DNA of 64,000 nt from Undaria pinnatifida (taxonomy: Eukaryota > Sar > Phaeophyceae > Laminariales > Alariaceae): the NCBI GenBank assembly GCA_012845835.1, contig JABAKD010000026.1:11098334-11162333 (forward strand). Direction: 5' to 3'. Shown in pieces: positions 7,433-49,000 of this stretch. Under the pieces are notes generated by a model. That model did not search any database and had not been told where the DNA came from. It saw only the letters and a list, made by a program, of their open reading frames with translations. How positions within the stretch are numbered: the stretch's first letter is position 1; each line of letters opens with the position of its first letter. The position numbers were made by a program, and so were the translations under genes.

Positions 7433-8203
7433 GAATTACTAGAGGGAATTCTCCTCGAGGCCATCGGCCAGTTGAAATGGCAACGAAGGCATGGATTCCA
7501 TGAGTAGCAGCAAGAGCTATTCAAAGTAATGGCTTCAGTGGTAATGGCGTGGACGTTGGAGGAGAAGCGATCGGAGGAAATTAGAAAACACAAACCCGAG
7601 TCGGGAAGGTTGGAAGAGGACGCTGAAGCGGCAGAGTAAACAAAACCACCGCAACCGCCAGAGCCGCTACCGCCGCAGCAGTCGCTGGCAGCGCAGCGGC
7701 TGGCCCTCCTGTCGCCACCGGAAGAAGTTGGCGGAGATGAGCACGAAGGGGTGATGGTATCTGAGAACATGGTTAAGGTTGGAGGAGTGATGGCGTGTGA
7801 TGGGGAAAAAGGGGTGGAGTCTATGCAGATGGACAAGGAGGAAGAGCTGCTCCAGCAGCAGCCGAACCAGCAGCAGCCACAGCTACCTGGTGCTGCCGAC
7901 CCAGACCTGTGGCCACCCCAATGGCAGCAGGTCTTGATGAGAGCAAGAGCGATTGGGAAATTGGAAGCCATGATTTTCAGGTTTTTGTTTGGGGGGGCAG
8001 AGCAACAGCAGGGTCGTTTGCGTTTGGAAAGTGCGAACCGAAGGGAGGCCAGAGCGATCGCCAGCAGGAGAGCGATTGGAAGCGAGAAAGCGTTGGCACC
8101 GGTTGGTCCTTCAGCATCTTCGGGGGTTGGGGGCAGGAGACGCCTCGTCGGCGCCTTACCCGTCCGCGGCGAACACGCGTACTTTGTACGCGAAAAGAGG
8201 TGA
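7316..8203 (+). pseudogene. ORF with two in-frame stops, Glu/Gln-rich, unidentified
   Basis: One plus-strand frame runs from about 7316 to 8203, interrupted only by TAG (7505-7507, in the context FHE*QQELF) and TAA (7637-7639, EAAE*TKPP). The sense frame reads ELLEGILLEAIGQLKWQRR, then VMAWTLEEKRSEEIRKHKPE, a proline/glutamine-rich linker (PPQPPEPLPPQQ) and PDLWPPQWQQVLMRARAI, followed by an Arg/Ala-rich end. Charged helical and PQ-rich composition recalls retroelement gag-like proteins or host low-complexity proteins, but no family is recognised. It is oriented opposite to the neighbouring copia Pol and overlaps its 5' edge, so it is not the gag of that element. Either a decayed gene or a second element. 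Confidence 0.45.
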
Positions 8204-24792: not shown

Positions 24793-25161
24793 GCAAGTGT
24801 TGTTCTTTTAAGATGCACCGCGTTTTTTATCAGATTTCATTATCAGCCCCTGTAGAAAACATGCCTCAAAAACAAATTGAAACCAATCAAAACCAATGGA
24901 GAAACGGGTTCTTACGAGACGACGCTGGCCAGAGCTTTTGAGATGTCGAAGAACCCCGCCAAAACGGATCGAACGTGACACGTCGTCGAGAGGGGGTGCT
25001 GACGGGAGCATACTTGTGGAGGTGAGCACGTTGTTAGGTGATGTTATTGACAGGACAGCAGTTAATCAGTGGCCAGCTTAGAGCTTTGTTGTGTAGTCTA
25101 CAAACCACGCACAAGTACTCGTAGATAGGTACGATACTGCAACACAACAAGCAGCAAGCAA

Positions 25162-26610
25162 GACGTCGTAACACGTGACCATTCTCGCGCTTTGAGATGC
25201 TTTGCGCATCGATGGCGCCAAGCAACCTATGCTAGGTACAGGCAGCAGGCAGGTACAATACACATGTTAAGCGAGCCGAGGCTGTACCTATGGCGGGTTC
25301 CGAGGTAAAGCCGGATATTTTTCACGAGATTTCAGAACGCGGCAACCACGAGGATTTGAGCTCTGAAAAATTGCACAAACTTCCGCTAGGTTATGGGGAT
25401 TACGAAGATATACTTTTTTTTCGATTTGGCCCTCGTGATGGTAAGTTACTCGCGAATAATTGGCTAAAATTGAGGTAAAATAGCGTCCGCGGGCACCCCG
25501 AGAAAATTTCAAACGCCTCCGAATCTTATAAAATTTTCAGGTTATGGTAATTTTGGGGTGTAGATCACGAACCCGTCGTTAGATTTTTGATCGGGATCGA
25601 TTTGACCTTGATACAGCTGCGCAAAGATACGTGCAAAAAGAGGGCATAACCTGGGATTTACTAGGGATTAGACTGAAAAACTCCCACCCGTGGAAAACGA
25701 TCCACACGTTGATTAGAGCTCTGTGAAACTTCTATTTGAGGTGATTTTAGGGTGGGGAACACGAAGATATCAATGGATTGTCCTAGTTATGCTTTTGGAA
25801 TCGACTTACGGCTGCCCAAAAGCTGACCTTAGTTGAGCAATTTCAAATTTCCTGGGATTTTTTATTCTCGGTTCCGGGCTCGAGTTTTTGTCTGAACAAC
25901 TTTCTGAGTGGCTCTACCCCCCCTATTTCGACCAAGCGGAAGCGATTGCCGCCGAGTCCGAGAAAAAAAAAGTTCGGCAATGCGGAGAAGAAAAAAAAAA
26001 TATCCGGAGGGCAACTTTTTTTTTTTGGGACATTTTTTTTAACATCGTATTTGGCCGTTTAAAAGCGAACCACGAAGTCGATTTTTTTTTTTTTTCTTAT
26101 TCCGAGCTCGGAAGAGCAGTCCGGCCTTAGGTCGGAACCCGCCCTATGCCAGACTGCAGATGCGACGCTTGCACACACGATCTATACACATTGTACAGCA
26201 GAACACTCGTTCGTTCGTAATTTTTTTTTCCTCCGCACTTTCATGTCCTATACTATTTCCAAATAGTTTGTCAAAGTAGGAAGAAGACGCAAGGAGGTGA
26301 GATGGTCTTGCTCGGAAGATGAGACGTCGTAACACTGACCATTCTCTGTCTCGCGATTTGATATGCTCTGCGCATCGATGGCGCGGTGCAACCTTTGCTA
26401 GGTACAGTTATAATACCCATGTCAAGCGAGCCAAGGCTGAACCTATGCCAGACTGCAGATGCGACGCTTGCACACACGATCTATACACATTGTACAGCAG
26501 AACACTCGTTCGCACGTATTTTTTTTTCTCCGATCTTTCATACCTATACTATTTCCAAGTATTTTGTCAAAGTAGGACAGGAAGGAAGACGTATCTTCCG
26601 AACAAGGCGT
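25162..26610 (+). repeat. ~300-bp tandem repeat in left arm, interrupted by TIR element
   Basis: Units begin at gacgtcgtaacac (25162, 26323) and aggcgtcgtatcac (26606). Each includes gcgcatcgatggcgc, gcgagccgaggctg and gccagactgcagatgcgacg. Removing the 850-bp insertion and one TSD gives a 305-bp first unit; the second is 284 bp. The mirror array is at 36985-37600. Confidence 0.75.
25293..26142. mobile_element. 850-bp TIR element inserted in left arm only
   Basis: The ends gcgggttccga and tcggaacccgc are exact inverses, and the imperfect inversion continues through about 23 bp (ggtaaagccgg versus cctaaggccgg). cctatg is duplicated on both sides (25287-25292 and 26143-26148). The homologous site in the right arm (37452-37457) has one cctatg equivalent and no element, so an empty site is directly visible. 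The interior is AT-rich with no transposase; a non-autonomous DNA element of unassigned superfamily. Confidence 0.88.
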
Positions 26611-27392
26611 CGTATCACATCACCTTGAAACTACTACAAACTGCAAACACACAAACGCGACGACGCCAGCATTGGTGTCTTCCTCGCTGTTTACGTCCGC
26701 CCTACCCCTTCAATCACAATGAATGCAGCTCAAAGATGAACGCAGCTTTTTCTGCCTGGAGGACGAGGACTCAAAGAGGCCTGCTCTTTGGCGTCAGGCT
26801 TTGTTACTGTAGAAATCTGTGTGTTTTGCAGTACACATGGTATGGCGTAGAAGTCGGTGTGTTTTCCAACCTGTAACGCGGTAGGTGTACTCTACAGGCA
26901 AACGTAGCCTAGTGGGACTCCGTGTGACATCAATGACTACTGTAACACTTTAATTTGGAGGGCCTTTTCGACACACGGCGCGCAATAGCGTCGTGGTTTC
27001 AAGCGTGTGTTGCGCTAACCGGCGAGGGTGCGCGGTGTTCGTCGCGACTGCCGGGAGATAATTTATTTTGGAGATGATATGCTGATGCATAAACAAAACT
27101 AACAGCGGTGCCGATGCCAACAGCGGCATGGGGCGTTGTGTGGCTCGTATATTCTTCCTATAAATATATCCATACTCTGTACTGTCGTCTATTCGCCTCA
27201 TCGGCGAGCAGGGATGGAAACTGACATAAATTAATACCCAGCCCTTCAGGATTTATCACCGCAACCGAGGGACGTCGCTATCATGCGCCGAACATCGATT
27301 ATTATTACGTGCATGCTAACCCTGACCCCTACACCAAGCAAACGCCAACGGTTGCTTTGTCCCCTGCATTCCAAACGCCCCAATGCACCAGT

Positions 27393-30051
27393 CTAAACCG
27401 CGAAAAAAAAAGACTGCACAGTAGGTGTCCCATCAGCACAACTCCGGCGCCAAACAAACCACGCCTCCGGTGAATTGCACGGCCTCCCGCGGTACGTTGC
27501 CCGCGGGAGTGCAACAACCGCACTAGGCGGATTTTCCTTGAACCAGTTACCGCGCGCCTTTGTGGGTTCGAGGAATGTCAGCCTCAGCTTGAATGCCACT
27601 CCTACCCGCGCAATCCGCCAAGCAATACTCAAAATTTCGAAGGCGTTCTTGTACGGGGGGCTAGTAACTATCCAGTCTACAAGGCTTGATTCGTCGGTGA
27701 AGGCCTTGAAGCACGCCTCTGAGGATGCGTCGTAGTGCGTGTCCGCCTGCAAACTGGACGAAGCGAGGCACGCGCACATTTGGGGGGGTTGGGGGGCGGG
27801 GGGGGGGGGGCGGGGGTTTGTTAACCGGTATGCACACAAGTCACAGACTCCACAATCAGCCGCCGTTTTGAAGCATTGCCCACAATTCATGTACACAACA
27901 AGTGGCCCAAAATCCAAACGAGTTTTGTACCACGGACTGGGGTATTTCCAATATTATGACTCTGTAAAGCGAGTTTCTAGTTTACGGTGGCGCCCGAAAA
28001 GTAGGGACCAAGGAGCTCTACGACACGCGCGGAGCATTGCGGTACTCGTACTGCTGTACACTCATCCTGGACGCTTGTTAAGATCGCACACATTGTTTGT
28101 TTGGCGCATGGGCCCCAAAATGGTTAAGGGGTGTTACCTTTGTTAAAACTAGTGGTACGACCGCTGCTTACGCCAGCGGGGCCTGTACGGCAACGGCCCA
28201 CCCACCCACATACACCCATAGACCCACACACCCACCCCACACAACCACCCACCCACTCATTCAACCACACACGCACTCACCAACAACCCACCCATCCACC
28301 CACCCACAATAATACGTACAGAGAAGGAAGAAAAAAAAACAGGCGCCTCTTCTTTCAACGGGGACATCGAGGGCTGCCGTGCGGGGTGGGCTTGGAACGG
28401 CTGTGGTGCCGGCTGGGGTCCGGTGGCGGTCGGGAGAAGCCGGTTTCCCGCAGGGTATAATAAAAAGCAATACACTGTGAAGATCCAAAAACACGTCACG
28501 ACGCTATCGTATTATATTATAAGGATGTTTGCAAGTGTAATGTAATATAGAACAAAAACGTCATCTGAGAGATCAAGGATTTGCACACATCGGACAGATC
28601 AGATCCCCATTCATGATCTGTGCCGTTCAGGGTAGACAGATCTCTGGTATATATGGTCTGCATGGCCTAGATCATGTTGCCGAGCGTGGAGCCGTGTGGT
28701 CTGCATGATCTAGCATATGTTTCCTGGGTTGGATCTGTGTTACGCAGATCCTGCACAACATATCAGAACGACAGATAGATGTTATAGATCATCTGGATCG
28801 TGATCTGTGCGACGTGTGAAGTATTTGGCCAAAATCATTTGTGCAAGCAAAATCCTGTACTGCCTTGCACACACAGCAGAGTTTTCATATATTGGTTGCA
28901 CGTAATAATACTAAATAATAAGGGGGGCGGGGGGGGAGGGGCGGGGGGGGGTACTATTTAATGCTCTTCTGTTTTGATATATTGGTTACATCTGTGTTGC
29001 AGACAGCACGAAAACAACTCTTTTTGGCCAAAACTATACTCAAATCGACAACTGAGAAGCACCTCTACTTCCGTTTTTTTCCTGCTGTAAAAAGGACCAG
29101 TACGTGCGTAAAACTTTTTTTGCAGCTCATACAGCAGCAAAGCTATCCAGCAGCAGCAACCGTCCCTCACCATCGGTTCAAGTCGTTCGTAGTGACGCGC
29201 AGGCCTTGCTCTGTCAGCACCATTGCCACAGCGTCCCCCTTCGCGCCGCAGATGTCAAGCACCTTTCCCGTAACCTCCACCCTCTCCAAAAGAGCTCGCA
29301 CCTGCCGCAATCGAAGCGACGTCGAGCGATATAAGGTTAAGCCAGTGAGAAACGTTGCTATCTGACACATCGGATGTCGGCCTCATGAACAGCTCTGCTG
29401 CACAACACTCGCGTACGTACATACTGGTATCTCATACCATACCCCTTTGTTTTTAGAAGCAACGTACAACATGAGGCAGGGCCGTATAATATGAACAATG
29501 TGTTTATGTTTGCGACACAGCAGTACTTGATCTCAGTGAGTGCGGTCAGTCGCTGCTTGTAAAAACAGCGGAACATATGTGGGCCTGCTCTATGGTCGTA
29601 CAGGCTACACACCACATACGCATGATCATGCGACGTACAGTCTATCAGGTATACATCATGGGGAGCATGCGACGTACAGTCTATCAGGTATGCATCATGG
29701 GGAGCTTCACACCTGAAATGAGGTCGAGGGGTATCGACCAAGAGGGGAGGCTTGACCCGTAGCCATGGTTCCCAACGAACACTTCTCCGCTTTCTGCTGC
29801 TGCGCGATGAACTTCTTGTACATAGAGACTACACAGTCCGTGCGGCAACATGCGCATTCACCAGCCACAAAACGCTTCTCCGTAATGTCGCGAGAGTGCA
29901 CCCATGCGGCTCCAACACTAGCAGTCCTATGCTCCAGCGCCGACCAGCAAGCTCCCCACGTGCCTCCAGCCGACATTCGACCTATCCCGAGCGCCAGGCC
30001 GGCCGCACGCATAGCAGAGCGCAAGCCCTCCTTCCGGATTTGGCTTCCCAT
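27393..30051 (-). CDS. TSPPY-type SAM-dependent DNA methyltransferase, left copy
   Basis: Three exons on the minus strand: 30051-29713, 29361-29171 and 27753-27393 (stop included). Introns are 351 bp (GTGTGA...CAG) and 1,417 bp (GTGAGG...CAG). Phases agree and give 296 residues. Exon 2 holds the SAM-binding motif I VLDICGAKGDAVAMVL and, at the next strand, VTTNDL. Exon 3 holds the catalytic motif IV DWIVTSPPYKNAFEIL, then ARVGVAFKLRLTFLEPTK and a PRATYRGR block. Order I then IV and the (T)SPPY tetrad are those of amino-methyltransferases (N6-adenine or N4-cytosine); which base is modified cannot be told. Exon 1 is uncertain: ATG 30051 is one choice, but an overlapping frame starting MPRGSRGACGLAQHGKPNPE also looks protein-like. 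Transcription would start near the palindrome centre, shared with the divergent right copy. The family resembles methyltransferases carried by mobile or virus-derived DNA (inference). Confidence 0.72.
28196..28312 (+). repeat. CCCA/CCAC microsatellite in methyltransferase intron 2
   Basis: Irregular ccca, ccac and cacacaccc units. The mirror copy is at 35292-35410. The Thr-His-Pro frames are repeat translation. Confidence 0.85.
28571..28805. other. cluster of 12 GATC sites, left arm
   Basis: GATC at 28571, 28597, 28602, 28615, 28639, 28670, 28707, 28732, 28747, 28787, 28796 and 28802, often as gatctg or gatcatg. About one would be expected by chance in 235 bp. It lies in intron 2 of the left methyltransferase gene. 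Confidence 0.85.
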
Positions 30052-30500
30052 GCTGTGCCAGCCCGCAAGCTCCGCGAGACCCCCTCGGCATGTTTTGCTC
30101 AGAAAAACTGGAAAAGTACAGATTTATTCGGTCGATGTTGATCACGAATAAACGAGGATTTTCGTGATCAACATCGACCGAATAAATCTGTACTTTTCCA
30201 GTTTTTCTGAGCAAAACATGCCGAGGGGGTCTCGCGGAGCTTGCGGGCTGGCACAGCATGGGAAGCCAAATCCGGAAGGAGGGCTTGCGCTCTGCTATGC
30301 GTGCGGCCGGCCTGGCGCTCGGGATAGGTCGAATGTCGGCTGGAGGCACGTGGGGAGCGGTCCTTGCTGGTCGGCGCTGGAGCAATGGACTGCTAGTGTT
30401 GGAGCCGCATGGGTGCACTCTCGCGACATTACGGAGCAGCGTTTTGTGGCTGGTGAATGCGTATGTTGCCGCACGGACTGTGTGGTCTCTACAAGGGCTT
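29821..30500. repeat. central palindrome of the inverted repeat
   Basis: Left arm 29821-30148 and right arm 30161-30489 are inverse copies. The innermost 20 bp (cggtcgatgttgatcacgaa and its inverse) are perfect, with a 12-nt spacer at 30149-30160. The right inner arm has a 5-nt insertion near 30360 that shifts the methyltransferase exon 1 frame. The symmetrical centre would serve as a bidirectional promoter region for the two divergent genes (inference). Confidence 0.9.
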
Positions 30501-31045
30501 CGCTAGCGGGCGGCTGGGCGCCGCCCGCTACGCTTGCGGAAGGAGGAATGGACATTCAGTAGGAAGGCGGAAAAGAAGCACAAATGGCGCAACTGGCGAC
30601 TTGAAAACGCCAAGAGGTCCATATAAAGTACAACGGTACAGGATAGAGACGATTATGATTATGAGTTTGTTATTATCATCCATTCGCCCAGTCCATGATG
30701 GGCACGTCGGGGGACTTGCTTGGCATATCCTTCCACCTTCAGGTAGCACCTGTACACTTATTATTAATAATAGCTCTAAGTCGATCATCAATAATAAATT
30801 ATCGCAGTGCATAAACACCAGGCACGCGCTTGTCAAGGATAGAGACAGGAAAACTACAACTCAAGATGTAAAGGAGCGCAGTGCCAAAAAAAACATGCTG
30901 GAAGCAGGAACTTGAACGCACACACCGCAAACATGTGAAGTACATTTGTATTCCTGAAAGACGAAGAGCACGCATTTAGGCATAGTTCTCAAAAAACGAT
31001 GCTGGTATAATAAACCACAACTTAACGTTCTATAAAGAACGTGCT

Positions 31046-33474
31046 GTCAACATTGCTTCCGAAGGAGCATGCAGGCTTGCTTGGACTCTTCCTCCTCAGC
31101 GGAGGTACCCAGCACCTTGCACTCTTGTTTTTTGTCGATGATCTTGTGGATCTGTCCACAAACGTTGAAGCATGGCGGGAGGACGTCGATAAGTATGTGT
31201 AAAAAAGTATTCGTACTTCTCTCCAGCAGACGTCGTAACCATCCAAATTATTGGAGCTCCTTTCGTTGTTAGTAATTGTTGTGGTATTGTTGTACTTGTG
31301 CTTGGTACTCGGAAAAAGAGCCGCACTTCATAGACTATATCCGCACGCCATCCCCCAGTCTTGAGCAAGAGACATGGATGTCTCGACTCGTGACACACAG
31401 GACGCAAGATAAGAGTAGAACGTACCTCGATGTCGAACGCCCTCGTGGCACCGTGGGAATGGAATGCGGGATGTATATCGAGCAAGTGGTCGCCTGCCTT
31501 CTTCAGGAGGTCACCGACCTTGATGTCGCCGGTGCACTTCGTGTTTATGTCCTCGCCGACTTGGCGGCCCTCGGCGGCTGCTTCGCAGGGCTTCTGCGAA
31601 CGACAACAACGGATGGGAATACCTTGCGTTCAGTGAATGTTCAAAATAGTAAGGCCACGTAGCTGTCGTCGATTTCCAAAGTTTGAAAGGAAGTCGTACA
31701 ATTTAACACTGTTGTAATGAAAGCGGTCGTTTATGGGCAAAGCCCTGCCTGGTACAACAACGTTGCTAACTCCTATGAAACCACCACTGGGACAGGAACG
31801 AACGGGATTCACAGTCGCAACTGGTAAGCGTAAGCCCCGGTATACTGCTATATAAGGCCTACCGGCGGAATACCGACAACGAAGGGCAAGAGACAGTACC
31901 TGCTGTATATATTGTTCGGTACTACTCTATTACTGCTGCTATCAACACTATTACGACCGACGGGTACTGCGATTCCTGAAGAGGTTGCGCACCCTACTTG
32001 TACTCGTTAATACAAAGAGTTTATGTGGTTGTATGAAAAATGAGTAACAGTAGTAGTACACCGCGTCACTACACGAACAACTCGCTAACCCCAATCACGG
32101 GACTGCTCTCCAGCATCACCCAGGTTAACTTCAGCTTCTGTTTACTGCTATATATCAACCTCCAGTGTGTACTGCGACTGGTGCTGAGGTATCATGCTGC
32201 TGTGTTATTTATCACTGCATGGACCATTTTTACAACCCTGGCTGACCCCCGCGATGAGACTTGCCCGTTTTCATTGCGTCTTACATGTATAGATACCACG
32301 TAGTCGTAGTCGTACATCCAAGACGTGTGTTTATATCACAGCACAAAGCGTCACTGCATGGACCACTTGTCCAACCCCCGCTTACCCCGATGACGGGACT
32401 GCCCCGTACTCGTAGTCGTACATACATGAAGTGTGTTTGGCTGTACGTATGAAGAAGAAATCGCATCACACAGCGTCACTGCATAGGTCTACTCGTAGAC
32501 CTGAGTGCTTGTACAATTCCCGCTTATACCCCGATGACGGGACTGCCCCGTACACGTACTCGTACATGCAAAAGTGTGTTTGTACGCATGAAAAAGAAAT
32601 CACAGCACACAACTGCGTAGACAACTAGTACAACATGCTTACCCCGACGACGGGACTGCCCTCCGTGACCACCAAGGCGAACTTGAGTTTGTTCAGGCTA
32701 CGCGTCCCCAAGCACAGCTTCCACACCATGTGGTAGTTCGACCACGCTGGTGTAGCACACACATGCTACAGCAGACGTTGCAGACAGGCACACAAGGTCA
32801 AACAATGTAAATTTCAATGTGCATCATTATTGGAAACAGGATTCGCTTGAGTTCACCAACACCCAAAACCACATACTGGTAGTCTATTGCGCACAACTTG
32901 CAGCACACTCAGCCAACACTCAACGCAGCACTACCGAAAATACAGGGTGTTGACATCTGGTGTCTTACCTATGTCGCACGGCGCTGAACACACTGACAAC
33001 GGGAACAAACTCTCAACATCATCAGTAGTATAGTAGCTGACAGCAAACATCAAATTCCAACAACACGAAGAAATGAAACTCACGTTTCGTCAAGCTCTCA
33101 GCTCCTTCGTTAGGGACGCCGATCGAAGGTGAATCACAGGTGTCCGCGTCACACTAGTCACACACACGAGGGTTGTCGCCGCTTCCCCAGTGCTTCTTGT
33201 TAAGGTTATGAAAAGCTTGGCACGTGGAAGGCTCGTCACTCCTGCAGGTGTCGCAGACAGCGTACTGGGAACTCCTGTTTTTCCTATTTCGTGCGATGAG
33301 GAAGCCGTCACAACCCTTGCTCGGGCACGGCCAATCAGGATTTCCAGAAGAAGCTGAGTCCCGTTCTTGCCCGACCAGCTTCCACACGCCTGATCCTGAA
33401 CCTCCACCACCCCCACTGTTGGCGGAGCCTCCTCCCGCACTAGCCTCGGTCCGCTTCGCAAATTTCAACTTCAA
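31046..33474 (-). CDS. unidentified multi-exon gene fragment within the insertion
   Basis: Four minus-strand exon-like blocks. A: 33474-33154 (non-ATG open frame), a Gly/Ser linker then WPCPSKGCDGFLIARN and QYAVCDTCRSDE, a CP-x-x-x-C...C-x-x-C zinc-ribbon-like pattern, ending at a TAG. B: 32765-32643 (41 codons, phase 0-0), HVCATPAWSNYHMVWKLCLG then KLKFALVVTEGSPVVG, donor GTAAGC. E: 31593-31426 (56 codons, phase 0-0), KPCEAAAEGRQVGEDINTKC and KAGDHLLDIHPAFHSHG, donor GTACGT. F: 31220-31046, LIDVLPPCFNVCGQIHKI ending ACMLLRKQC and stop. B, E and F share phase and could join; A does not fit phase cleanly. No family is recognised; Cys-rich. Other exons may lie at 31650-31812. Confidence 0.45.
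32084..32660 (-). repeat. ~140-bp tandem array carrying exon B splice-donor segment
   Basis: Minus-strand words gggcagtcccgtcatcgggg followed by taag-type donors recur at about 32638 (the exon B donor), 32525, 32381, 32241 (degenerate) and 32084. The last unit keeps 16 codons similar to the end of exon B (KLKLTWVMLESSPVIG, 32137-32090) with a gttagc donor. Units also share gcgtcactgcatggacc and actcgtagtcgtacat words. Confidence 0.65.
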
Positions 33475-34798
33475 ATTGTTATTGCCGATCCGGCAAATTT
33501 CAAATTCAAATTTTTTGCAGCCGTCAACGGCAATTCCCTCTCAACAGCCAGCAATTGGCCAACTTCAAAAGTAAAAGTACAAAAAAGAAGTTGCTGAAAA
33601 AGCAAAATAAAAATATCAGAGAGCAAGCAGTAAAGATCAGAGAATGAGAGCTAAGTAAGAATGAGACTAGGGAAAGCAAGGAAGGCAAGGAACTTCGGGA
33701 CGGTTCTTTTCCCCAGCAACTAATTTTCTTTTCGGCAATTACGGGCTGAGAAGGGCTGAGAGGGGGGAGGATATGCCGAGCGAGACCTCCGAGGGGGTCG
33801 AGGTCTAGGTATTAAAGTTAATGTACAAGAAGTTCATCGCGCAGCAGCAGAAAGCGGAGAAGGGTTCGTTGGGAACCATGGCTACGGGTCAAGCCTCCCC
33901 TCTTGGTCGATACCCCTCGACCTCATTTCAGGTGTGAAGCTCCCCATGATGTATACCTGATAGACTGTACGTCGCATGATCATGCGTATGTGGTGTGTAG
34001 CCTGTACGACCATAGAGCAGGCCCACATATGTTCCGCTGTTTTTACAAGCAGCGACTGACCGCACTCACTGAGATCAAGTACTGCTGTGTCGCAAACATA
34101 AACACATTGTTCATATTATACGGCCCTGCCTCATGTTGTACGTTGCTTCTAAAAACAAAGGGGTATGGTATGAGATACCAGTATGTACGTACGCGAGTGT
34201 TGTGCAGCAGAGCTGTTCATGAGGCCGACATCCGATGTGTCAGATAGCAACGTTTCTCGCTGGCTTAACCTTACATCGCTCGACGTCGCTTCGATTGCGG
34301 CAGGTGCGAGCTCTTTTGGAGCAAGTGGAGGTTACGGGAAAGGTGCTTGACATCTGCGGCGCGAAGGGGGATGCTGTGGCAATGGTGCTGACAGAGCAAG
34401 GCCTGCGCGTCACTACGAACGACTTGAACCGATGGTGAGGGACGGTTGCTGCTGCTGGATAGCTTTGCTGCTGTATGAGCTGCAAAAAAAGTTTTACGCA
34501 CGTACTGGTCCTTTTTACAGCAGGAAAAAAACGGAAGTAGAGGTGCTTTTCAGTTGTCGATTTGAGTGCAGTTTTGGCCAAAAAGAGTTGTTTTCGTGCT
34601 GTCTGCAACACAGATGTAACCAATATATCAAAACAGAAGAGCATTAAATAGTACCCCCCCCCCGCCCCTCCCCCCCGCCCCCCTTATTATTAGTATTATT
34701 ACGTGCAACCAATATATGAAAACTCTGCTGTGTGTGCAAGGCAGTACAGGATTTTGCTTGCACAAATGATTTTGGCCAAATACTTCACACGTCGGACA

Positions 34799-35033
34799 GA
34801 TCACGATCCAGATGATCTATAACATCTATCTGTCGTTCTGATATGTTGTGCAGGATCTGCGTAACACAGATCCAACCTAGGAAACATATGCTAGATCATG
34901 CAGACCACACGGCTCCACGCTCGGCAACATGATCTAGGCCATGCAGACCATATATACCAGAGATCTGTCTACCCTGAACGGCACAGATCATGAATGGGGA
35001 TCTGATCTGTCCGATGTGTGCAAATCCTTGATC
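34799..35033. other. cluster of 12 GATC sites, right arm
   Basis: GATC at 34799, 34805, 34814, 34854, 34869, 34894, 34931, 34962, 34986, 34999, 35004 and 35030: the mirror of the left cluster, inside intron 2 of the right methyltransferase copy. Confidence 0.85.
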
Positions 35034-35291
35034 TCTCAGATGACGTTTTTGTTCTATATTACATTACACTTGCAAACATCCTTATAATATAATACGATAG
35101 CGTCGTGACGTTATTTTGGATCTTCACAGTGTATTGCTTTTTATTATACCCTGCGGGAAACCGGCTTCTCCCGACCGCCACCGGACCCCAGCCGGCACCA
35201 CAGCCGTTCCAAGCCCACCCCGCACGGCAGCCCTCGGTGTCCCCGGTGAAAGAAGAGGCGCCTGTTTTTTTTTCTTCCTTCTCTGTACGTA

Positions 35292-35410
35292 TTATTGTGG
35301 GTGGGTGGATGGGTGGGTTGTTGGTGAGTGCGTGTGTGGTTGAATGAGTGGGTGGGTGGTTGTGTGGGGTGGGTGTGTGGGTCTATGGGTGTATGTGGGT
35401 GGGTGGGCCG
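35292..35410 (+). repeat. GGGTGGGTG microsatellite, right arm
   Basis: Mirror of 28196-28312. Confidence 0.85.
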
Positions 35411-36984
35411 TTGCCGTACAGGCCCCGCTGGCGTAAGCAGCGGTCGTACCACTAGTTTTAATAAAGGTAACACCCCTTAACCATTTTGGGGCCCATGCGC
35501 CAAACAAACAATGTGTGCGATCTTAACAAGCGTCCAGGATGAGTGTACAGCAGTACGAGTACCGCAATGCTCCGCGCGTGTCGTAGAGCTCCTTGGTCCC
35601 TACTTTTCGGGCGCCACCGTAAACTAGAAACTCGCTTTGCAGAGTCATAATATTGGAAATACCCCAGTCCGTGGTACAAAACTCGTTTGGATTTTGGGCC
35701 ACTTGTTGTGTACATGAATTGTGGGCAATGCTTCAAAACGGCGGCTGATTGTGGAGTCTGTGACTTGTGTGCATACCGGTTAACAAACCCCCGCCCCCCC
35801 CCCCCCGCCCCCCAACCCCCCCAAATGTGCGCGTGCCTCGCTTCGTCCAGTTTGCAGGCGGACACGCACTACGACGCATCCTCAGAGGCGTGCTTCAAGG
35901 CCTTCACCGACGAATCAAGCCTTGTAGACTGGATAGTTACTAGCCCCCCGTACAAGAACGCCTTCGAAATTTTGAGTATTGCTTGGCGGATTGCGCGGGT
36001 AGGCGTGGCATTCAAGCTGAGGCTGACATTCCTCGAACCCACAAAGGCGCGCGGTAACTGGTTCAAGGAAAATCCGCCTAGTGCGGTTGTTGCACTCCCG
36101 CGGGCAACGTACCGCGGGAGGCCGTGCAATTCACCGGAGGCGTGGTTTGTTTGGCGCCGGAGTTGTGCTGATGGGACACCTACTGTGCAGTCTTTTTTTT
36201 TCGCGGTTTAGACTGGTGCATTGGGGCGTTTGGAATGCAGGGGACAAAGCAACCGTTGGCGTTTGCTTGGTGTAGGGGTCAGGGTTAGCATGCACGTAAT
36301 AATAATCGATGTTCGGCGTATGATAGCGACGTCCCTCGGTTGCGGTGATAAATCCTGAAGGGCTGGGTATTAATTTATGTCAGTTTCCATCCCTGCTCGC
36401 CGATGAGGCGAATAGACGACAGTACAGAGTATGGATATATTTATAGGAAGAATATACGAGCCACACAACGCCCCATGCCGCTGTTGGCATCGGCACCGCT
36501 GTTAGTTTTGTCTATGCATCAGCATATCATCTCCAAAATAAATTATCTCCCGGCAGTCGCGACGAACACCGCGCACCCTCGCCGGTTAGCGCAACACACG
36601 CTTGAAACCACGACGCTAGTGCGCGCCGTGTGTCGAAAAGGCCCTCCAAATTAAAGTGTTACAGTAGTCATTGATGTCACACGGAGTCCCACTAGGCTAC
36701 GTTTGCCTGTAGAGTACACCTACCGCGTTACAGGTTGGAAAACACACCGACTTCTACGCCATACCATGTGTACTGCAAAACACACAGATTTCTACAGTAA
36801 CAAAGCCTGACGCCAAAGAGCAGGCCTCTTTGAGTCCTCGTCCTCCAGGCAGAAAAAGCTGCGTTCATCTTTGAGCTGCATTCATCGTGATTGAAGGGGT
36901 AGGGCGGACGTAAACAGCGAGGAAGACACCAATGCTGGCGTCGTCGCGTTTGTGTGTTTGCAGTTTGTAGTAGTTTCAAGGTGA

Positions 36985-37600
36985 TGTGTTACGACGCCTT
37001 GTTCGGAAGATACGTCTTCCTTCCTGTCCTACTTTGACAAAATACTTGGAAATAGTATAGGTATGAAAGATCGGAGAAAAAAAAAAGTACGTGCGAACGA
37101 GTGTTCTGCTGTACAATGTGTATAGATCGTGTGTGCAAGCGTCGCATCTGCAGTCTGGCATAGGTTCAGCCTCGGCTCGCTTGACATGGTTATTATACCT
37201 GTAACTAGCAAAGGTTGCACCGCGCCATCGATGCGCAGAGCATATCAAATCGCGAGACAGAGAATGGTCAGTGTTACGACGTCTCATCTTCCGAGCAAGA
37301 CCATCTCACCTCCTTGCGTCTTCTTCCTACTTTGACAAACTATTTGGAAATAGTATAGGACATGAAAGTGCGGAGGAAAAAGAAATTACGAAAGAACGAG
37401 TGTTCTGCTGCTGTACAGATCGTGTGTGCAAGCGTCGCATCTGCAGTCTGGCATAGGTACAGCCTCGGCTCGCTTGGCATGTGTAGTGTACCTGCCTGCT
37501 GCCTGTACCTAGCATAGGTTGCTTGGCGCCATCGATGCGCAAAGCATCTCAAAGCGCGAGAATGGTCATGTGTTACGACGTCTTGCTTGCTGCTTGTTGT
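36985..37600 (-). repeat. ~300-bp tandem repeat in right arm
   Basis: Inverse counterpart of 25162-26610 without the 850-bp element. Two units, each with cgtcgcatctgcagtctggc and gcgccatcgatgcgc words. Confidence 0.75.
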
Positions 37601-37627
37601 GTTGCAGTATCGTACCTACCTACAAGT

Positions 37628-38394
37628 TGTAGTTGTTGTTCTCACATTAACTCGTATAATCAAGTCCGTGGTCACAGGACAGGCTCCAGTCACTCTGGAG
37701 CTGAGGAATACCCCAGGGAAAACACACACAACCCAAGGTGGTACACGCATATATCACAGCTGACGCAATTCATGCCTCCACCAGAAACATATAAAAGTGA
37801 AATCGGGAGTCAGTCTACGATGTGCCAGGTCCAGGCCGGTTCATACGTCTCACTACTCACGCCTGGAGAAACCAAATATTCCGATTGCCACCCAAGGAAG
37901 ACTACCACGTATATATTACACGTAGTATCTATCACTACGCATACGCACGACAGGCTTAAGTCAACTGGAGAAAAAGAAACAAAGAAAAGAAAAGAAGATA
38001 AAGGAAAGGAAAGAAAAGAAAAGAGAAGAAAAAACGAAACAAGACGAAAAAGGCAAGCAAAGAGAAGAAAAAGACAAGAAAAGCAAGAAAAGACAAGACA
38101 GGAAAGCAAGGAAAGAAGAGAAAAAAAGAAAAAAGAAATAGAAAAAGAAAAGAAAGAAAAATGTCATACTAGCAGACCCTAGGAACTGGCTAAGGATGGC
38201 ATTGGGCTAACAGAGGGTATCACGTCCATCATCAATGGCACCTGGGAGAGAACGCAACATGGCGAAGAAGTCAGGGCGGTCTTATGCTCTCTTGTGACGG
38301 CCATTAGAAATCCCACAACTTTCAATACGATGATGGCCAAACCCAGACTTCAGTCTCTTGGGCATGACGCTCCCCCTTCCGCCCCTCCCCCCTT
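37628..38394. mobile_element. 767-bp insertion in right arm with LTR-like segment
   Basis: cctacaagt (37619-37627 and 38395-38403) flanks it as a target duplication, and the left arm shows the uninterrupted site near 25110 (inverse). The first 240 bp (37633-37870) are the LTR-like repeat also found inverted at 2372-2646, with a TATA word at 37787. A purine tract follows, then about 230 bp of unassigned sequence. No coding region. Confidence 0.8.
37965..38160 (+). repeat. purine-only GA tract, ~195 nt
   Basis: Almost pure A/G on the plus strand (gaaaagaaaagaagataaag and similar), with rare c or t. Low-complexity Lys/Glu frames or their Phe/Leu complements are artefacts. Such tracts can form triplex DNA. 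Confidence 0.85.
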
Positions 38395-38660
38395 CCTACA
38401 AGTACTTGTGCGTGGTTTGTAGACATACACAAAAAAGCTCTAAGTTGGCCACTGACTAACTGCTGTCCTGTGAATAACATCACCTAACAACGTGCTCACC
38501 TCCACAAGTATGCTCCCGTCAGCACCCCCTCTCGACGACGTGTCACGTTCGATCCGTTTTGGCGGGGTTCTTCGACATCTCAAAAGCTCTGGCCAGCGTC
38601 GTCTCGTAAGATAATGAAATCTGACAAAAAACGCGGTGCATCTTAAAAGAACAACACTGC

Positions 38661-41600
38661 AAGAGTATGGAAAGCAGAGGACCGTGCCTACTCGGTCTTC
38701 CGGACGCTTGCCCGCGTTAGAGCCAAGGGATCAGTCGAGAGGCGCTCCGAGGCACTCCTCCCAGAATATGACCGTACTTTTCGTCGACGAGTCGGAGGCC
38801 CAGAAAAGTTCGATCGCGGACGATCGCAGATAAAACACAAGGCAGGCACCACTGGCTTGATGGGCGACACCACTTACACGAAGTCTGAAGAGATTTCACG
38901 CAGACGGGCCTCTGCTATGACGACAAGTCTGTTTGGTGATGATGGGGGGGGGGGTGGTTCGGATGGGTTCCCATGAAAAAAGTGCAAAATATTATTGGAA
39001 ACCCTCAAAACCCAAGAACGGTTCTTCTCATCACCACATAATTGCTCGTGCATCAAGGCACGTCGGCGCAAGGCTCTTCTTTTTTGCTCCAGGTGCACCC
39101 CGATGCTCATGGCTACCTGGCCGTCCTGACAGCTCGAGAAGGTGCCCACTGTAGCGCGCGCACCATTGACAAACGACGTGATCTAAAAAATGCGGTGCAA
39201 GAACAACACTGTATATTCATACAGTAGGTCGGTGTGGTGAGCCGGAGGGGACAAACCGGCGACTAACCTGAACCCTGGATATAACTACACTAAAGTAGGT
39301 GGTATCAGACACCAGAGAAGGTCACAACGCCAGCCGCCAACAGCAATAGCCACCAAGGTGAAGGTCACGACAGCTCGACAGCCAGATGGTGACGAAGGCC
39401 AATAAAGGCAAAACAATACCACCAGTAGTGCCTTCTGATTGGTTGACTCGGACGGTCCCGCATATTTTCTTTTTTCGGAGTCGTGGGCTGTGGGCTGGAG
39501 ATGCAGAGCTCCGGCCTGGGGATCAACGCTGGGAGTCAGGGTTGGGGCCTGGATGACGTCGAAGGCACCTATCTCATTTGGACGTTCGTTCACAGCTGAT
39601 GGGACAGCGGTGCGGTGCCACACCCCATTCATGTTGCGCATTCAGCCCATTGGCAGCCTGAATTTTCCCGGAGATACAAAGCGTTCCCCCATAATTGGAA
39701 ACCCTGTTCAAAATCAAAGTACGTCGATCGCTGCTGCTACTGGCTGGTTCTGCAAACAGCAAACTGTGAGCACTGCTGTCACGGCGGCAGTGCACACCGC
39801 TCGCTGCAAGTGTTGTCGTACAATAACATAGGGTAGGGCTGATATGCCCCTGCGGTGCTGAATACAGGTGGTGCTCGGGCATCGGAAGCTGCAGCAAGGT
39901 GAGCTGTCCTCCTCCATCGCGGAGCCCATGCTTCGGACTTGAGGTTGCTGCCGTCGGGTGTGACAGCCCAGCACCGATGACTGCGATGCTGCAGAGCACT
40001 TGATCGCATTGATGTGAAAGAGATGCAATGAGTAGAGGACATGCGCTTTTGTGAGTTGTGATACGCTTCGGCTGTAGGTTGCCATGCTTCTTACGCTCTT
40101 GACCGAACTATGGTACGACTTGTATTAATAATCCTGCTGTGCTGGTCGGGCATTCAAGTTTCGCGTATCATGCTGCCGCTGTGCGTAGGAGGTTGTTCCG
40201 CCTGCAGTGGAGCTTGTAAACTACCGGCGCCGCTGCTGCTACGTTGCTGCAAAGCTACAACTGAAGGCTGCACTCGTATACCAGGTATTGGTGAGTACTC
40301 GTGTACTCGTTAGTTCTCGTGAATACTCGTGCACTTCTCGTATACTGCTCGAGTTCTCGAGAGTACTCGGTATACTCTTGCGCTCGTTCACTCATCGGGC
40401 TGTACGGCAGACAGCAGTAGGGGTGCTGCACAAGTATTTCGCGCACTGCTGCGAATCGTCGGAAATAGCACCGCAGCTGTCATAATAGAAAAACCTTGAA
40501 GCTCGTCAGTATTGCGCCTCACAGCATCTTCAACTCGACCCAAGAAGCTAACAGCAAAACGCAGCGGAATACCAGTAAAACCTATTTCTGGTAATTACGT
40601 ACCAACCAGGTAGCACAGCAGGAAGGCTGTCACTCTGCTTAAACCACGACAAAACATGTTCCGGGTCTCATAGTTTCCCAGTGTTTTGGTCCCAAATCGT
40701 CGACGCAGCAGTCGCAAAGTGTTCTCTTCTGCGTGCTTGTACATGGGTAGTCTCTTGTACAGACGAGTATAACGGTATACCCTGGCCTAAGAGCACGTAC
40801 GTACCTGGTACAAATAGTGGTTTACCCGTATCTACGCCAGCCGAGGTGGTGCGGAGCCACCAGCGAGCGAGCCACCAGCGAGCGGGGACTCAGAGGACAC
40901 AACCAGCCAGCGGGGTCTCCGGATACGCGTAAACAAACGTGCGTTGCCCCCCGCGAGCAGCGGCCCTCTCGCGATTCCAGTCGAAAGAACGGGTGCCGCC
41001 CTTGCGTGTACGCACAATAGACAGAAAACACGTATTAGTACGTACCACCGATCATTGTACTAATGCTGCTGTACACATTTCCGGGGACACAACGAACGCA
41101 TCCCCGTGTTTCCCGGAACACGATGAACTCATCGCCCCGGCAGAGGAGAATGATGTGTCATCCCCAAGAAAAAAGTATCAGTGCTGTACATACACATTTG
41201 AACAGTACCAGAATACGTGCGGGCTATGACAATACTGGAAATTCGTCGAACTCACCGCTGACGTCCTTAAATATTTCTATAAAATACTAGTCCAATCCTG
41301 TCAGCGCATACAGGTACCAAGTGTGTGCGTACGAATATGTACCGGCTGGCGCACCTGTAAGTCCACATGCTGCAGCAGCAGTGTTAGTTACGTACTGAAA
41401 ATATAGCCTGTCAAAATTACTCGCCAATAGTATTCCCGGGTGGGATTCGATGGCGTCTCCCAAAAGAAAAACTCCTGGAAACGAAACCCCTAAAGGAGAC
41501 AAGATCGAAACCCCTAAAAGAGACAAGGTCGGAAAATTCCCGAAAATTATACCTCCTGAAAATGTTGAGACCCTTACACCCCGTGGAAATTGAAACCCAC

Positions 41601-43096: not shown

Positions 43097-46000
43097 GTGA
43101 GGAGAAGGTAGGCACGACGAAAAGGGAGCCTATTCACGGCAGCGCGGACTCGATCACGTCGTATTTCATGACGGCCGCTGTCTGCCGACACCAAGCTTCA
43201 CTAGCCGCCCTGGTGCCCGCTTCGAGAGAGCGGATGGATAGTGGAGGTGCTGTTGTGGGGATCATCCCGCTCCACAGCGCGAACGGTGGACTCCCGACGG
43301 TGGCGTCGGTTAGGGGGGCTGGCGGCGTTGCAGCTGGTCTTTGTGGTGCTCCACGTCTGGCGAGTAGGGTTTCAGCACGGGTATTACGGCCGGCTGCACG
43401 AATACCGCGTAAAGCGTCGGGCGTCAAAGGTTCCGCCGCATTTGGCGGTAGCGCTGGAAAACGTGGTCCGGCGGCGGCAGCAAGGCCGGTTAGGGCCAGC
43501 GACACCGATCGAAGGTTGGCCTCCACTACGTCTACTGACCAAGAAATCCCGAGAAAACGGGAGAACCCATCGACAATTTCCGCCAACATTCTTGCTACTA
43601 AAAAATATAATGAGGGGGGAGGGGGAGGGGGGGGGGGGGGGTGGTCCGGTTGGCACGGAAAATCGGCGTGCACACCCCCTCCGATATTTTCCCTTCCCTC
43701 CAGAGTACACGTCCTTGGTAAAGCGCTCCCTCCGGCACCTCGTCGTGTCTAGCGGATGCGATGTTGCAGTACCCGCCTGCCCAGACCTGTCCGTAGATGC
43801 TGCGGCCGGGATGGGTGGACCGGGCGACGTAAGCGGGAGCGGAGGAGTGGAGGGGGGGGCAAGCCGCCGACGACCCGCGGACGGCACCGCGCTTGTCCGC
43901 ATCGGTTCGTTCTCGACTGTCGGCGGTGGCGGTAGTAGCGAGGTTTCGCACTTTGACGGTGTAGCTCTCAACGGCGTCGGCACCAGCGGTATCGGTGCTA
44001 ACCGTAGCACCGGTAGCGGCAGTGGTACAGGTGCTGCTAGCCCTACAGGGGCCTTGCTTGCGCCGTTCGGTTCTCCATTTTCTCCCCCCAGATCGGCGAT
44101 GGCTGGCAGCCGGGATCTCCCTCGAGAGGGGGCGCTGACGGCGTTGCTGAGAGGCATGGTGTGCGTCATCGGGCAAGATTCAATCGTTCTCGTGGAAGGA
44201 GAAGACGGCGCTGGTGCGGCGGATGCTGTAGGGGTCTCAGCACCCCGTGCAGATTGTACACCAGGAAAAAAGACCGGAGTCGGAGATAGCGGTGACGTCG
44301 GTAATGACGGCGGTGGTGCGATGAGGGCTGATGCGGGCCAGAAAGGTAAGGGCGGGCGGGCGGGGGTAGGGAATTAACGGGGCTTTTCAAAGGGACTGTG
44401 GTGGTACGGCGCGGCAGGAAACAGTGATGGCGGGTGCCGGCCAAACGCAAACCACCATCACGCTTGAGTTGGTGCTCTGCTTCTCTCTCAGTCATTATTA
44501 CCCGCTCCATGTTGATTCGCGGCAGATTTGTATTCTTGCCGTCCAGCACGTGCCCATGCTTCGACCACTGCTCGCTCTACGGCGTCGCGAGAGCCGACGT
44601 CAAACCTATCGCGACTGTCGTTATATTCGACGCCGTCGTCGCCCCTGCTGCTGCTGTTGGCGCTTGTGCTGTTGCTGCTGCTCGTGTCGCTGCTTCTCTT
44701 GCTTCTGCTCTTGATTATTCAGTGGGGAAAATACACGAGGAGAGGAAGGGACGCGGAGGGGCGAGAAAAGCTCCGATGTCTCCGACGGACGCCCTAGTGG
44801 AGCTGATGCTGCTGCCCATGACCGCATCGAAACCTTCTCGGGAGGGTAAGAGCGCTCCCCACGCCACGCGGACAGCCTCTCTCGAGTGCTCGAGGCATTT
44901 AACCATTTTGTAATCGCACTCACGCGTGGGGGACAGTATTGCAGCTTTGCAGTTAGACTAGGACATGAGCCCACGCTGGTGATGCCCAGCCCCCCTTCCC
45001 CCGGCGCGCGCCTGGTACTGTTACGCTGCACTCATATTTCGCTGGAGCGCTGCAATACGTTCTTTGGGGTAGGATACGACCCCCCCACCCCGTAATTACA
45101 CCAGCGCGGGAAGGACGGACTACGCCGCAATTGCAGTTTTTGTGCGGCATCAAATATCGTGCCGACTCTAGCTGTTAGATAGACTAGAGCGGGGCAATGC
45201 ATTTGATTAACCCGTCCTCTTAATTGCGGGGCATGTAACCGTGGTGGCGTTTTTTCCTGCGTTGGATCTAGTTCTCCGTTTCCTTTTTGCGGGGCATGCA
45301 TCCATCGTGTCGGTGTGTGCCCTTTCTTCCCCGGAGGAGGGAGGGATGTGCTCAACTCCTTTAGAACTTCACTCAAGCATTCGGGGGCGAACTACGTGGA
45401 ATTAGTGTGTAATTTGTTTTTTGCAGCAATGAACGCGTTAAAGCTTTCCTCTGGGTTTCGCGAAGCATGTATCACGTCGTGCGTTTGTGTGCTTATTATT
45501 GTTTCCCCATGCACAGAATCGACACCGTTGGAGTTCCTTCTTCCCAAAGGCGTGTTGCTGACGGGGCCGCCCGGAGTAGGCAAGACGTTTGCCGTCAGGA
45601 ACGCGGTGGAAACCGTGCGAGAACTTGCATCCGAAACTGGGAAATCGCCTTTTCAGGTGCTTCTGCGGGTCCACGGTACAGTCCAGTAGTAGGTTATCTA
45701 CTATCAAGAGCAACCTTTTTTTTCGGAAGTACATGTCATAGCTTTACTCCGTCAGCCGAAATATTGGCCTTTGACCCCTGTAGAACTATGCGCGTCCGTG
45801 GACAAAATAGATCGAATTAGACACAGATAGTTCGAGGTTGTGGTTTCACGGGTGCAGCAGTAAAAGGGTTAGACGGCATTCGTGGCGGGGGTGTTCTTGT
45901 CGCGTAGCCCAAATTTACCAGAGAACATGGTATTATATACTAAACTCAAGGCGCGTCGCTCCGCGGGCGGCATCCGCCCGCTACGGTAGCCCCAAATAGA

Positions 46001-49000
46001 ACAAAACGTGAAGTGGACTCAGGTCCATGACTGGGTGCACCTTACGGCTTCCTCATGCCAAGAGCTCCACGCTTCAGGAAAACGACCCGGACGTCGCAAT
46101 CACGCATGAATCATATCATCCCCACGGAAGAGAAAGGACGCGGAGAGAGCAGTACTGTGTTACTGTAGTGTTGTATCCTAATGAGTTGGGAGTAAAGGCA
46201 AGTATTTCACGCATCATCAGCTAGCTGCTGCTGGATGGGATTGTATACGTTTTTTTGCCGGGAATAGTTCAAGGTACTCGTTCGCCTCGAAAACGCAGCA
46301 AGCTGTAGAAGACTCTTGACGACTTGATGGGTCTCGGCAACTCTTGTCTTCTTGTCCTTGTATTGTCGCGCCACACTCGGCACGTGGGACCTGTTTTGCT
46401 ACGTTGTGCTGGGCTGGTCACGCTGTGCCGTGCTGTGCCTGCAGCAGATGGTCAGTAGGTGGTAGATGACAACACATGCTAGCCAAGGGGCTGGGTGTGC
46501 TGGTTGTGTATTTGAGCAGAAACAGAAATATATACGCGTACTGTACGTAGGATTCTAAACTTGCCTCGTACTGCTACGAATAAGAAAAGGGCGCAAAAAA
46601 AGTCGGACCACGAAGCGAGGTGTAAAAGTTCGATGGCGCAAACATGGTGGACCTCGCCAACTCCGGGTATTCTTGCGTCAAACACTTGGGTTGTCGTGCA
46701 GCAGCTACTACGTGTGTTTTGATGGGGTGGGGGCTGAGTGTGTTACGCTGTGCTGCTCTGTCGTTGTGGTATTTTGTAGATGCTCGACGACAACATGCTA
46801 TTACTGCTGTAGCTCTGAAGAATTGGGGGTGAGTGTGCTTTGTGGTTCGAGCAGAAGATGCAGATGCATAGTACACGTGTAGTCTACCAACGTTAATACG
46901 CGTGTAGTCAACGACCGTGCTGCGTAGATATTATATGATACGTGTAAAATAAACGTGCACGTACGTGTTTGTACGAAGTTTTTGTAGTCGTATTATGCAG
47001 AAACCTGATAAAAACGTCCACAATATAAAAATTATCGGGAACGAATATCGGAAAAAATACCGTAAAAAATATATATCGGGAAGAAAAACGAAAACGATCT
47101 CTCAGAGCTCGAATCAGACTCGAAAGACAGTCGAAAACGAGCAAGGTATTCGAAAACACCGGGAAACCCGATTTAAAGTCACGCAAATGAGGGAGAAAAA
47201 GAAACTCAAACTAAGCAGCGCAAAAAAACACATATACAACTTGTCGAAACTCCACCCAGGATCGAAAAACAGTCAAAGCTGTGTGAGATAATCGTGAAAA
47301 ACGCAAAACAACGACGAACGGAAATGAAAATGAAGAGGAACGTGAAAGCAAAAATCCTAGGAAAGCGAAGAAAGCAAGGAACTCAAAGGAAGCGGGGGAG
47401 GTTCGCCGAGACGATTAGTCAGGCAAGCGTGGTCCGGGTGGGAGCTCTGAGAGCGCTGCAAGGTCCTCCAATCAATCGTGCCACGGACAGATTGCGTGTT
47501 GAAGTAATTGTATAGCGGATCCACATTTTTCGCGCACAGACACCGATACAGGTTTGTTTGCGCCGTCGAACTGTTCAATGACCCCGTCCACAAGCCGCCG
47601 ACCTGCCTGCCTAAATCTGGTCGAAATCCATTTTGACGCCCCCCCCCCCTTAATGTATATATATAATTGTTGGCCTCGATTGGCACTGACGCTGTAAAAC
47701 ACTCAATGTGTGTTGGGGTTAGCGCTGGTTGGCAACGACGGTGTAAAATATGCCAATCACTGCGTGAACTAGACAAACAGGGTACCATTGTTTTTTTGGT
47801 TGGCGGCCACCGTGATGGTTGTCGAGGTGGGTTATATGGTGCGGGGTGGAGAGCCCTAACTCCGCACAAGCGGAATGATCGCGTCACGTAGTGTGAATAT
47901 GCTAAGGCACCCACGAGGCGGTTGCGCAGTAATACCCATAGTGGCTACACCAGAAAACAAAGTAACTCATTGGCGCTGTCATCCATAAGCAAGAAGGTAG
48001 GCACAAGGGGCCGAAGTCCGTCTTACAAGCGGTTCTTGGAAGAATGCAGTTCGCCCTTCATGCGACTCGCCGAACATCTCACGGCGTTTCGCGCTTGGTG
48101 CAAGCAACGTCTGCTAGGTTAGTGAAAACCGGACGTGCTCCGTCCCGGCATATTAATAGTAAGGCACAAACTGAGTACACCCCCCCCCGCCCCCGCCCCC
48201 GGAAGCAGGAAAGGGACACGTTAGACAAACTGGAATAATTTATTGCATGAAAAAAGCGTAATGAGCGCCCAATACTCGGTCTCGAAAGGGGTGCGTGGCC
48301 AATGGGGCAATGACTAGGCAACAACTGAGTACCTTCCCCACTCCTGGCCGCCCCACCTACTGTGCTGCGCGTTTCGTAATGATACGATAGGTCCAACTCC
48401 CCACGCCCAACCCGAGCAACACATGAGTACGCCCCTCCCCGTCTACTCTGCTGCGTCTTTCGGAAAGTTAGGTCGAGGTCACCACACTCAACGCAAGCAA
48501 CAATTGAGTACGCCCCCCTCCCCCCAGGCCGCTCGGTCTGAAGTGCTGTTTTTTTAGTGTTAGGTTCAAAAATACTGCACTCGACGCCGGCTTCAAATAA
48601 GTACACCCCCCTTCCGCCGCCCCCGCCGGCCCCCGCGCCCTCTGTGCTGTGTTTCTCAAAATGTTGTGATAGATCCATCTCACCACGCCCAACGCGAGCA
48701 ACAAACGAGTACCCCTGTGTCCGCTGTGCTGTGCTATGTTGTGTCTTTCGGGACGTTTATGATTTATCCAACCCAGATTCAGCAGAAGCAACAAACCAGT
48801 ACCACCCCCCACCCCCCCCGCTGTGCTGTGTCTTTCGGAACGGTATGATAGGTCCAACTCACCACGCTCAACGGAGCTGAAATATTGTCGCTCGGCCAAT
48901 GGAAAGCCTGCGAAGCTCTCCGTGAGGCGTTTTCCGCGGCGGAGAATTGGAGCAGAGATTCAGCTCGGGGAGGGCGGCGCGGGTTTCCTGACGCAACCGG

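Follow-up and report, generated by a model that had tools for sequence, protein, structure and literature searches.

The window analysed here, 64,000 nucleotides (nt) of the brown alga Undaria pinnatifida (contig JABAKD010000026.1, positions 11,098,334 to 11,162,333), contains two divergent copies of a putative intron-split DNA amino-methyltransferase gene, which lie on the arms of a long inverted repeat within what appears to be a composite of two transposon copies. An earlier note, made from the sequence alone, had placed the exons of one copy at 29361-29171 and 27753-27393 and those of its mirror image at 34244-34434 and 35851-36211. The coordinates and the in-phase joins hold on reanalysis, the introns of both genes are bordered by GT...AG, and the S-adenosylmethionine (SAM) motif I, DICGAKGD, lies upstream of the catalytic TSPPY in the spliced gene, as the note had described. 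For the middle exon, the 3' border stands, whereas the 5' border (29361 or 34244) was probably set 60 nt too early: a start at 34304 in the right copy and 29301 in the left copy is more likely, because the acceptor CAG/GTGCGAG (the stroke marks the border) is common to families 1 and 2 of the elements described below, the alignment with family 2 starts only about 7 nt before this acceptor, and in a related copy, L021, an in-frame stop immediately precedes it. The border at 34244 was rejected in favour of the better supported 34304.

Both copies in the window possess an additional first exon beyond the pair previously described, and it is disrupted in both. On the minus strand, the left copy comprises exon 1 (29713-30091, coordinates derived), which encodes a cysteine-rich N-terminal domain and is shifted out of frame by a 5-bp deletion relative to the right copy and to elA, a single copy found elsewhere in the genome; exon 2 (29171-29301), with motif I; and exon 3 (27393-27753), with TSPPY and a stop codon at its end. 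On the plus strand, the right copy comprises a first part of exon 1 (30218-30491, 274 of the intact exon's 384 nt), which is ended by a 3.3 kb insertion (30492-33820) that exon 1 lacks in the left arm, in elA and in a second single copy, elB; the second part of exon 1 (33822-33931, coordinates of both parts likewise derived), which ends at the donor CAG/GTGTGA; exon 2 (34304-34434); and exon 3 (35851-36211), with TSPPY. The insertion contains a cysteine-rich open reading frame (ORF) at 33157-33540 on the minus strand, for which all Pfam matches are sub-threshold. A CXXC-like stretch in frame upstream of exon 3, MNCGQCFKTAADCGVCDLC at 35714-35770, was considered and dropped, because the block conserved in family 2 begins after it and because its ORF has no Pfam match.

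Transposon families and the composite locus

In the U. pinnatifida assembly searched here (511,146,479 bases, 68 contigs), the middle exon as previously delimited has 19 matches, four of them at 97-100% (including the two in the window) and 15 at 74-77%. Family 1 is represented by the single copies elA on contig C22 (16.374-16.380 Mb; 5,661 bp) and elB on C38 (3.351-3.357 Mb; 5,990 bp); family 2 has 14 copies (L022-L035), with L021 as one further relative, and its nine copies with both ends readable measure 5,847-6,428 bp. The element ends begin CAGTGTT...; both termini of the family-2 copies carry CAGTGTTGTTCCATTTAG as terminal inverted repeats, and those of elA and elB carry CAGTGTTATTTTTTTAAG in terminal inverted repeats of about 34 bp. 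When ends were read by a strict pattern, which left an end unread in five of the 14 family-2 copies, 4-bp target duplications were found around nine of the 11 copies with both ends readable (seven of nine in family 2, plus elA and elB). Terminal inverted repeats and target duplications of constant length are the marks of cut-and-paste DNA transposons, and the possibility raised in the earlier note that the gene is the cargo of an element is borne out by the single copies, in which it lies inside such transposon ends.

Between families 1 and 2, the exons and the leader can be aligned and the introns and 3' halves cannot. A 140-bp leader block near the 5' end (39036-39175 in the window) is about 80% conserved between the two families, unlike the introns, and may hold promoter or transposition signals. 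Genome-wide, the methyltransferase has at least 55 exon matches and the N-terminal domain at least 36, and the two occur together at further places (for example C57:8.40 Mb and C22:7.26 Mb); another match to exon 3, at 98%, lies on C1. Two further family-1 loci, L038 (C22:24073) and L055 (C37:1981193), consist of the 5' 845 bp of elA, about 630 bp of other sequence and elA 3554-3605, and are, to judge from this arrangement, rearranged or internally deleted copies.

The inverted repeat in the window is real, with a main block 98.8% identical over 3,527 bp, and extends farther than was first described: its arms reach out to 24796 and 38658 from a 12-nt centre (30149-30160). Sequence from elA maps onto the window in pieces, with position 607 onward running leftwards from 30150, position 605 onward running rightwards from 30157, and positions 20-564 at 39199-38668 (93.9% identity), so the outer element would lie on the minus strand, from 39211 to 24796, with the inverted copy, which is without its first 600 bp or so, in its leader. 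By BLAST with elA and the reading of the ends, the composite (24796-39211) is accordingly described as a minus-strand family-1 transposon, with its 3' end at 24796 and its 5' end at 39211, that holds an inverted, 5'-truncated second copy. The left arm (24796-30148, minus strand) contains the outer copy's 3' portion, which starts shortly before exon 1 and runs to the 3' terminal inverted repeat; the right arm (30161-38658, plus strand) is the inverted second copy with later insertions, and also ends at the 3' terminal inverted repeat; and the outer element's own 5' end, displaced from the rest and corresponding to about elA 1-564 and including the 5' terminal inverted repeat, follows at 38668-39211 (minus strand). 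About 850 bp (25293-26142) are present at their place in the left arm only, and about 800 bp (37628-38425, part of which matches window positions 2385-2630) in the right arm only. The arms are closer to each other (98.8%) than to elA (96.9-97.3%), as expected from local duplication or later conversion.

The idea that the inverted repeat forms the terminal repeats of a large element was rejected: elA, elB and the two family-2 copies compared with themselves are non-palindromic, and the single copies examined are 5.7-6.4 kb long, end in short inverted repeats and are flanked by 4-bp target duplications. On this comparison, the palindrome is a secondary inverted duplication. Elsewhere in the genome, exon 3 of L021 (C31:4998796-4999248) contains a stretch of its own antisense sequence, and the N-terminal exon occurs at C13:1499880-1500703 as a convergent inverted pair, as read from match positions; inverted duplications may therefore recur in this transposon family.

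A palindrome with a centre of only 12 nt, in a genome assembled from PacBio reads (PMC7058681), could also have been produced by a long read that doubled back where an adapter was missed or by the joining of two haplotypes, the true locus being a single element. We consider such an artefact very improbable, because the arms differ by about 1% substitutions and by the private 3.3 kb insertion, a 39-bp duplication, the 5-bp deletion and the blocks of 850 and 800 bp; because the 5' end of the outer element lies beyond the 3' end of the right arm, which is not expected from a simple fold-back; and because the two outer flanks of the composite do not match each other.

Homology, selection and ancestry of the methyltransferase

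Residues 21-171 of the spliced protein of 183 amino acids (aa), a range that spans the splice junction, match phrog_799 (DNA methyltransferase) at 5e-13, and the protein is 35% identical to a protein of Cyanobacterium sp. Dongsha4 encoded on plasmid pDongsha4a (tblastn 2e-21, BLASTP 9e-31), in an alignment with no gaps at the splice junction and eight gap positions elsewhere. Phage proteins align at about 30% identity (best E 2e-6), with the residues around the junction gapped, and the highest identity of any homologue over the methyltransferase domain is 41% (viral contig L062). The phrog_799 match across the junction, together with the gapless alignment of the plasmid protein there, argues that the exon arrangement exceeds chance, and by these alignments the spliced exons encode a small amino-methyltransferase related to phage and cyanobacterial-plasmid proteins. 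General databases returned less: Pfam gave only a sub-threshold methyltransferase match for the spliced protein, and nothing at E 1 or below for the 291-aa protein as a whole or for its N-terminal domain; NCBIfam matches fell far below cut-off; PDB, searched with the spliced protein and with a profile, gave no credible match; and a viral scan seeded with the single protein found no relative. The protein has TSPPY at the catalytic motif and no MT-A70 Pfam match, which places it outside the MT-A70 group (AMT1, METTL4); METTL4-like enzymes are described as having the motif DPPW (PMC8885841). With the phrog_799 match, the homologues and the transposon ends, the proposal that this is an intron-split gene of the DNA amino-methyltransferase kind, tied to mobile DNA, is upheld.

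In elA and elB, the three exons join into an uninterrupted 291-aa protein consisting of the cysteine-rich N-terminal domain (exon 1) and the methyltransferase. The ratio of nonsynonymous to synonymous substitution rates (dN/dS) between families 1 and 2, determined with our own Nei-Gojobori script for elA against the majority sequence of the ten of 14 family-2 copies that are of equal length, is 0.23 overall (dS 0.73), and 0.20, 0.32 and 0.23 for exons 1 to 3, respectively; by this measure, purifying selection has acted between the two families on all three exons. In ten of the 14 family-2 copies, the stretch that starts at CGLTKHG is free of frameshifts and premature stops all the way to its end. 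A third family, L170, has kept the N-terminal domain (54%), the Q/VRAL join and TSPPY, so that homologues with the same exon joins, whose absence the earlier note would have counted against the gene, exist both there and in family 2.

Purifying selection between families, at a dN/dS of 0.23, might likewise be found in a host-domesticated methyltransferase gene merely caught up in repeats. We consider that explanation very unlikely here: both families with readable ends lie inside transposon ends with target duplications (distant matches, such as that at C32:10.75 Mb with 39%, are outside this comparison), and the copy number and within-family decay fit a gene of transposons rather than a domesticated one. 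At the window locus itself, where domestication had been entertained, nothing points to it; both copies are broken in exon 1.

Motif IV distinguishes the kelp proteins from their relatives. All 115 collected prokaryotic and viral homologues, some of them near-duplicate loci, have N at this motif (TNPP[FY] in 114, TNPTF in one); the set was made up of 80 of 86 viral-contig loci, 27 prokaryotic loci from the alignment A3 scans and eight hand-picked phage or plasmid loci, and the scan patterns permitted either S or N. The kelp families have TSPPY, with TSPLY in L033 and TSPPH in L027 as single-copy exceptions, and so differ from phrog_799 by having S in place of N. This difference suggests that the specificity has changed from N6-adenine to N4-cytosine, but does not prove it. 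According to a study of bdelloid rotifers, SPPY is common to most bacterial N4-cytosine (N4C) enzymes and the rotifer enzyme N4CMT produced N4-methylcytosine (4mC), and the methyltransferase domain is said to have evolved specificity for 4mC or for N6-methyladenine (6mA) repeatedly (PMC8885841); therefore, 4mC in kelp is a prediction only.

A tree of 106 sequences (118 before identical ones were removed), built by a quick method with support from the Shimodaira-Hasegawa-like approximate likelihood ratio test (SH-aLRT) only, groups the three kelp families together (SH-aLRT 100) inside a set of 11 rows (SH-aLRT 99) that also contains viral contigs L062, L063, L064, L065 and L067 and three cyanobacterial plasmids. 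Two of these viral neighbours carry phage genes: L062 encodes DnaB, RusA and an exonuclease, and L064 a portal protein; two ORFs of L063 had no match.

Interpretation and relation to known systems

The locus most probably consists of two damaged copies, one inverted, of a DNA transposon of the cut-and-paste type that carries the intron-containing amino-methyltransferase as an accessory gene. An aberrant self-insertion would have placed the second copy, reversed, in the leader of the first, and fold-back repair would have sealed the insertion, leaving the palindrome with its 12-nt centre. The elements would be mobilised in trans, because no transposase was recognised in them. Least certain are the last steps, in which the cysteine-rich N-terminal domain would guide the enzyme to the DNA of the transposon, and methylation there would help transposition or shield the element from the host.

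Several observations weigh against this reading. Among the 39 ORFs of at least 85 aa in elA and one family-2 copy, the 37 scanned have no Pfam match above cut-off, neither to a DDE transposase nor to the tyrosine recombinase, reverse transcriptase, PolB or integrase that would have placed the elements with DIRS or Mavericks, as the earlier note had contemplated; the other two ORFs cross the border of two fetched stretches and were outside the scan, which short spliced exons could escape. Comparison of elA with one family-2 copy by tblastx returned only exons, the leader and fragments of 8-32 aa, and the elements are taken as non-autonomous because no transposase was recognised. Two of the 11 copies with both ends readable have no matching 4-bp target duplication, and no clear one surrounds the composite. 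The predicted splicing is based on phase, conserved borders and homology. Motif I, DICGAKGD, differs from the phage form EPCCGEG, and therefore the activity of the kelp enzyme is not assured. In L170, exon 1 contains a stop and the reading frame of exon 3 is broken. In nine of the 14 family-2 copies an in-frame TGA follows 11 codons past the likely start MPRAPS, just upstream of CGLTKHG, and only L023, L029 and L033 (the copy with TSPLY) can be read through from MPRAPS. Constraint within family 2 is weak, with a ratio of 0.67 (12 synonymous and 26 nonsynonymous variants among ten of the 14 copies); together with the TGA stops, this mild constraint indicates that many copies are decaying.

The same lack of a recognised transposase, weak constraint within family 2 and stop near the likely start in nine of 14 copies would fit a non-autonomous Pack-type transposon that captured the methyltransferase by chance and makes no use of the protein; giant families with only non-transposase genes are reported from Ectocarpus (PMC12477816). 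We regard chance capture as unlikely, because the same three-exon gene has been retained across two families (dS 0.73, dN/dS 0.23), and is recognisable in a third, whereas families 1 and 2 can no longer be aligned in their introns and 3' halves.

As an accessory methyltransferase of a transposon, which is the best reading, the gene is comparable to the ParB-methyltransferase of the Ectocarpus Sola1 element, although it is differently built. Sola1-1_Ec32 is described as a 21.5 kb element with a transposase and a 1104-aa fusion of ParB with an N4C/N6A methyltransferase, and its authors propose that proteins of this kind bind the transposon that encodes them and modify it (PMC12477816). Both are brown algal DNA transposons with an amino-methyltransferase domain in an accessory gene; unlike Sola1-1_Ec32, which is compared by its description only, the kelp elements are 5.7-6.4 kb long, have no recognised transposase and encode a 291-aa protein with a cysteine-rich N-terminal domain that has no Pfam match, no ParB-like domain being found up to E 1 in that domain or in the whole protein. 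Target duplications of Sola1 elements are 4 bp. The phrog_799-type methyltransferases of phages and cyanobacterial plasmids are homologous to the kelp protein over the methyltransferase domain, and that of pDongsha4a is gapless at the splice site; unlike them, the kelp gene is split by introns, is fused to an N-terminal domain of no known family and has TSPPY rather than TNPP[FY]. N4CMT of bdelloid rotifers, a lineage described as having no C5 methyltransferases, is likewise an amino-methyltransferase that contains SPPY and is of bacterial origin, and its authors report that it clusters with phage enzymes (PMC8885841); whereas N4CMT has a chromodomain and is a host gene that marks transposons, the kelp gene is multicopy and transposon-borne and has no Pfam chromodomain. 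Literature titles and abstracts, mostly without subscription papers and preprints, held nothing on this Undaria element.

Elsewhere in the window, a host gene for an AAA ATPase, which we take to be AFG2/SPATA5-like, probably has its exons within 45207-62699, with a Walker motif near 45.6 kb and further motifs near 52.3 and 62.4 kb; in Pfam, the AAA matches to the first of its ORFs are below cut-off and the other two ORFs have none. A fragment of a Copia-type reverse transcriptase lies at 6275-7435 on the minus strand (RVT_2 7.6e-21), and a fragment of a Pif1-type helicase at 1568-2203 (Pif1_2B 1.5e-8) possibly derives from a Helitron.

Brown algae are reported to be without DNMT1, DNMT3 and DNMT5 (PMC13076208). 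A more far-reaching and tentative proposal, which we hold to be possible though doubtful, is that a lineage of kelp DNA transposons encodes its own N4-cytosine methyltransferase, a phage adenine-type enzyme switched by the N-to-S change in motif IV and steered to transposon DNA by a new cysteine-rich domain, so that the element would write 4mC in an algal lineage reported to have lost cytosine-5 methylation. A transposon-borne SPPY amino-methyltransferase that appears to have been retained by selection in more than one family gives the search for 4mC or 6mA in a lineage of complex multicellular organisms a definite starting point. It would also be a second, differently built brown algal case in which transposons may mark themselves.

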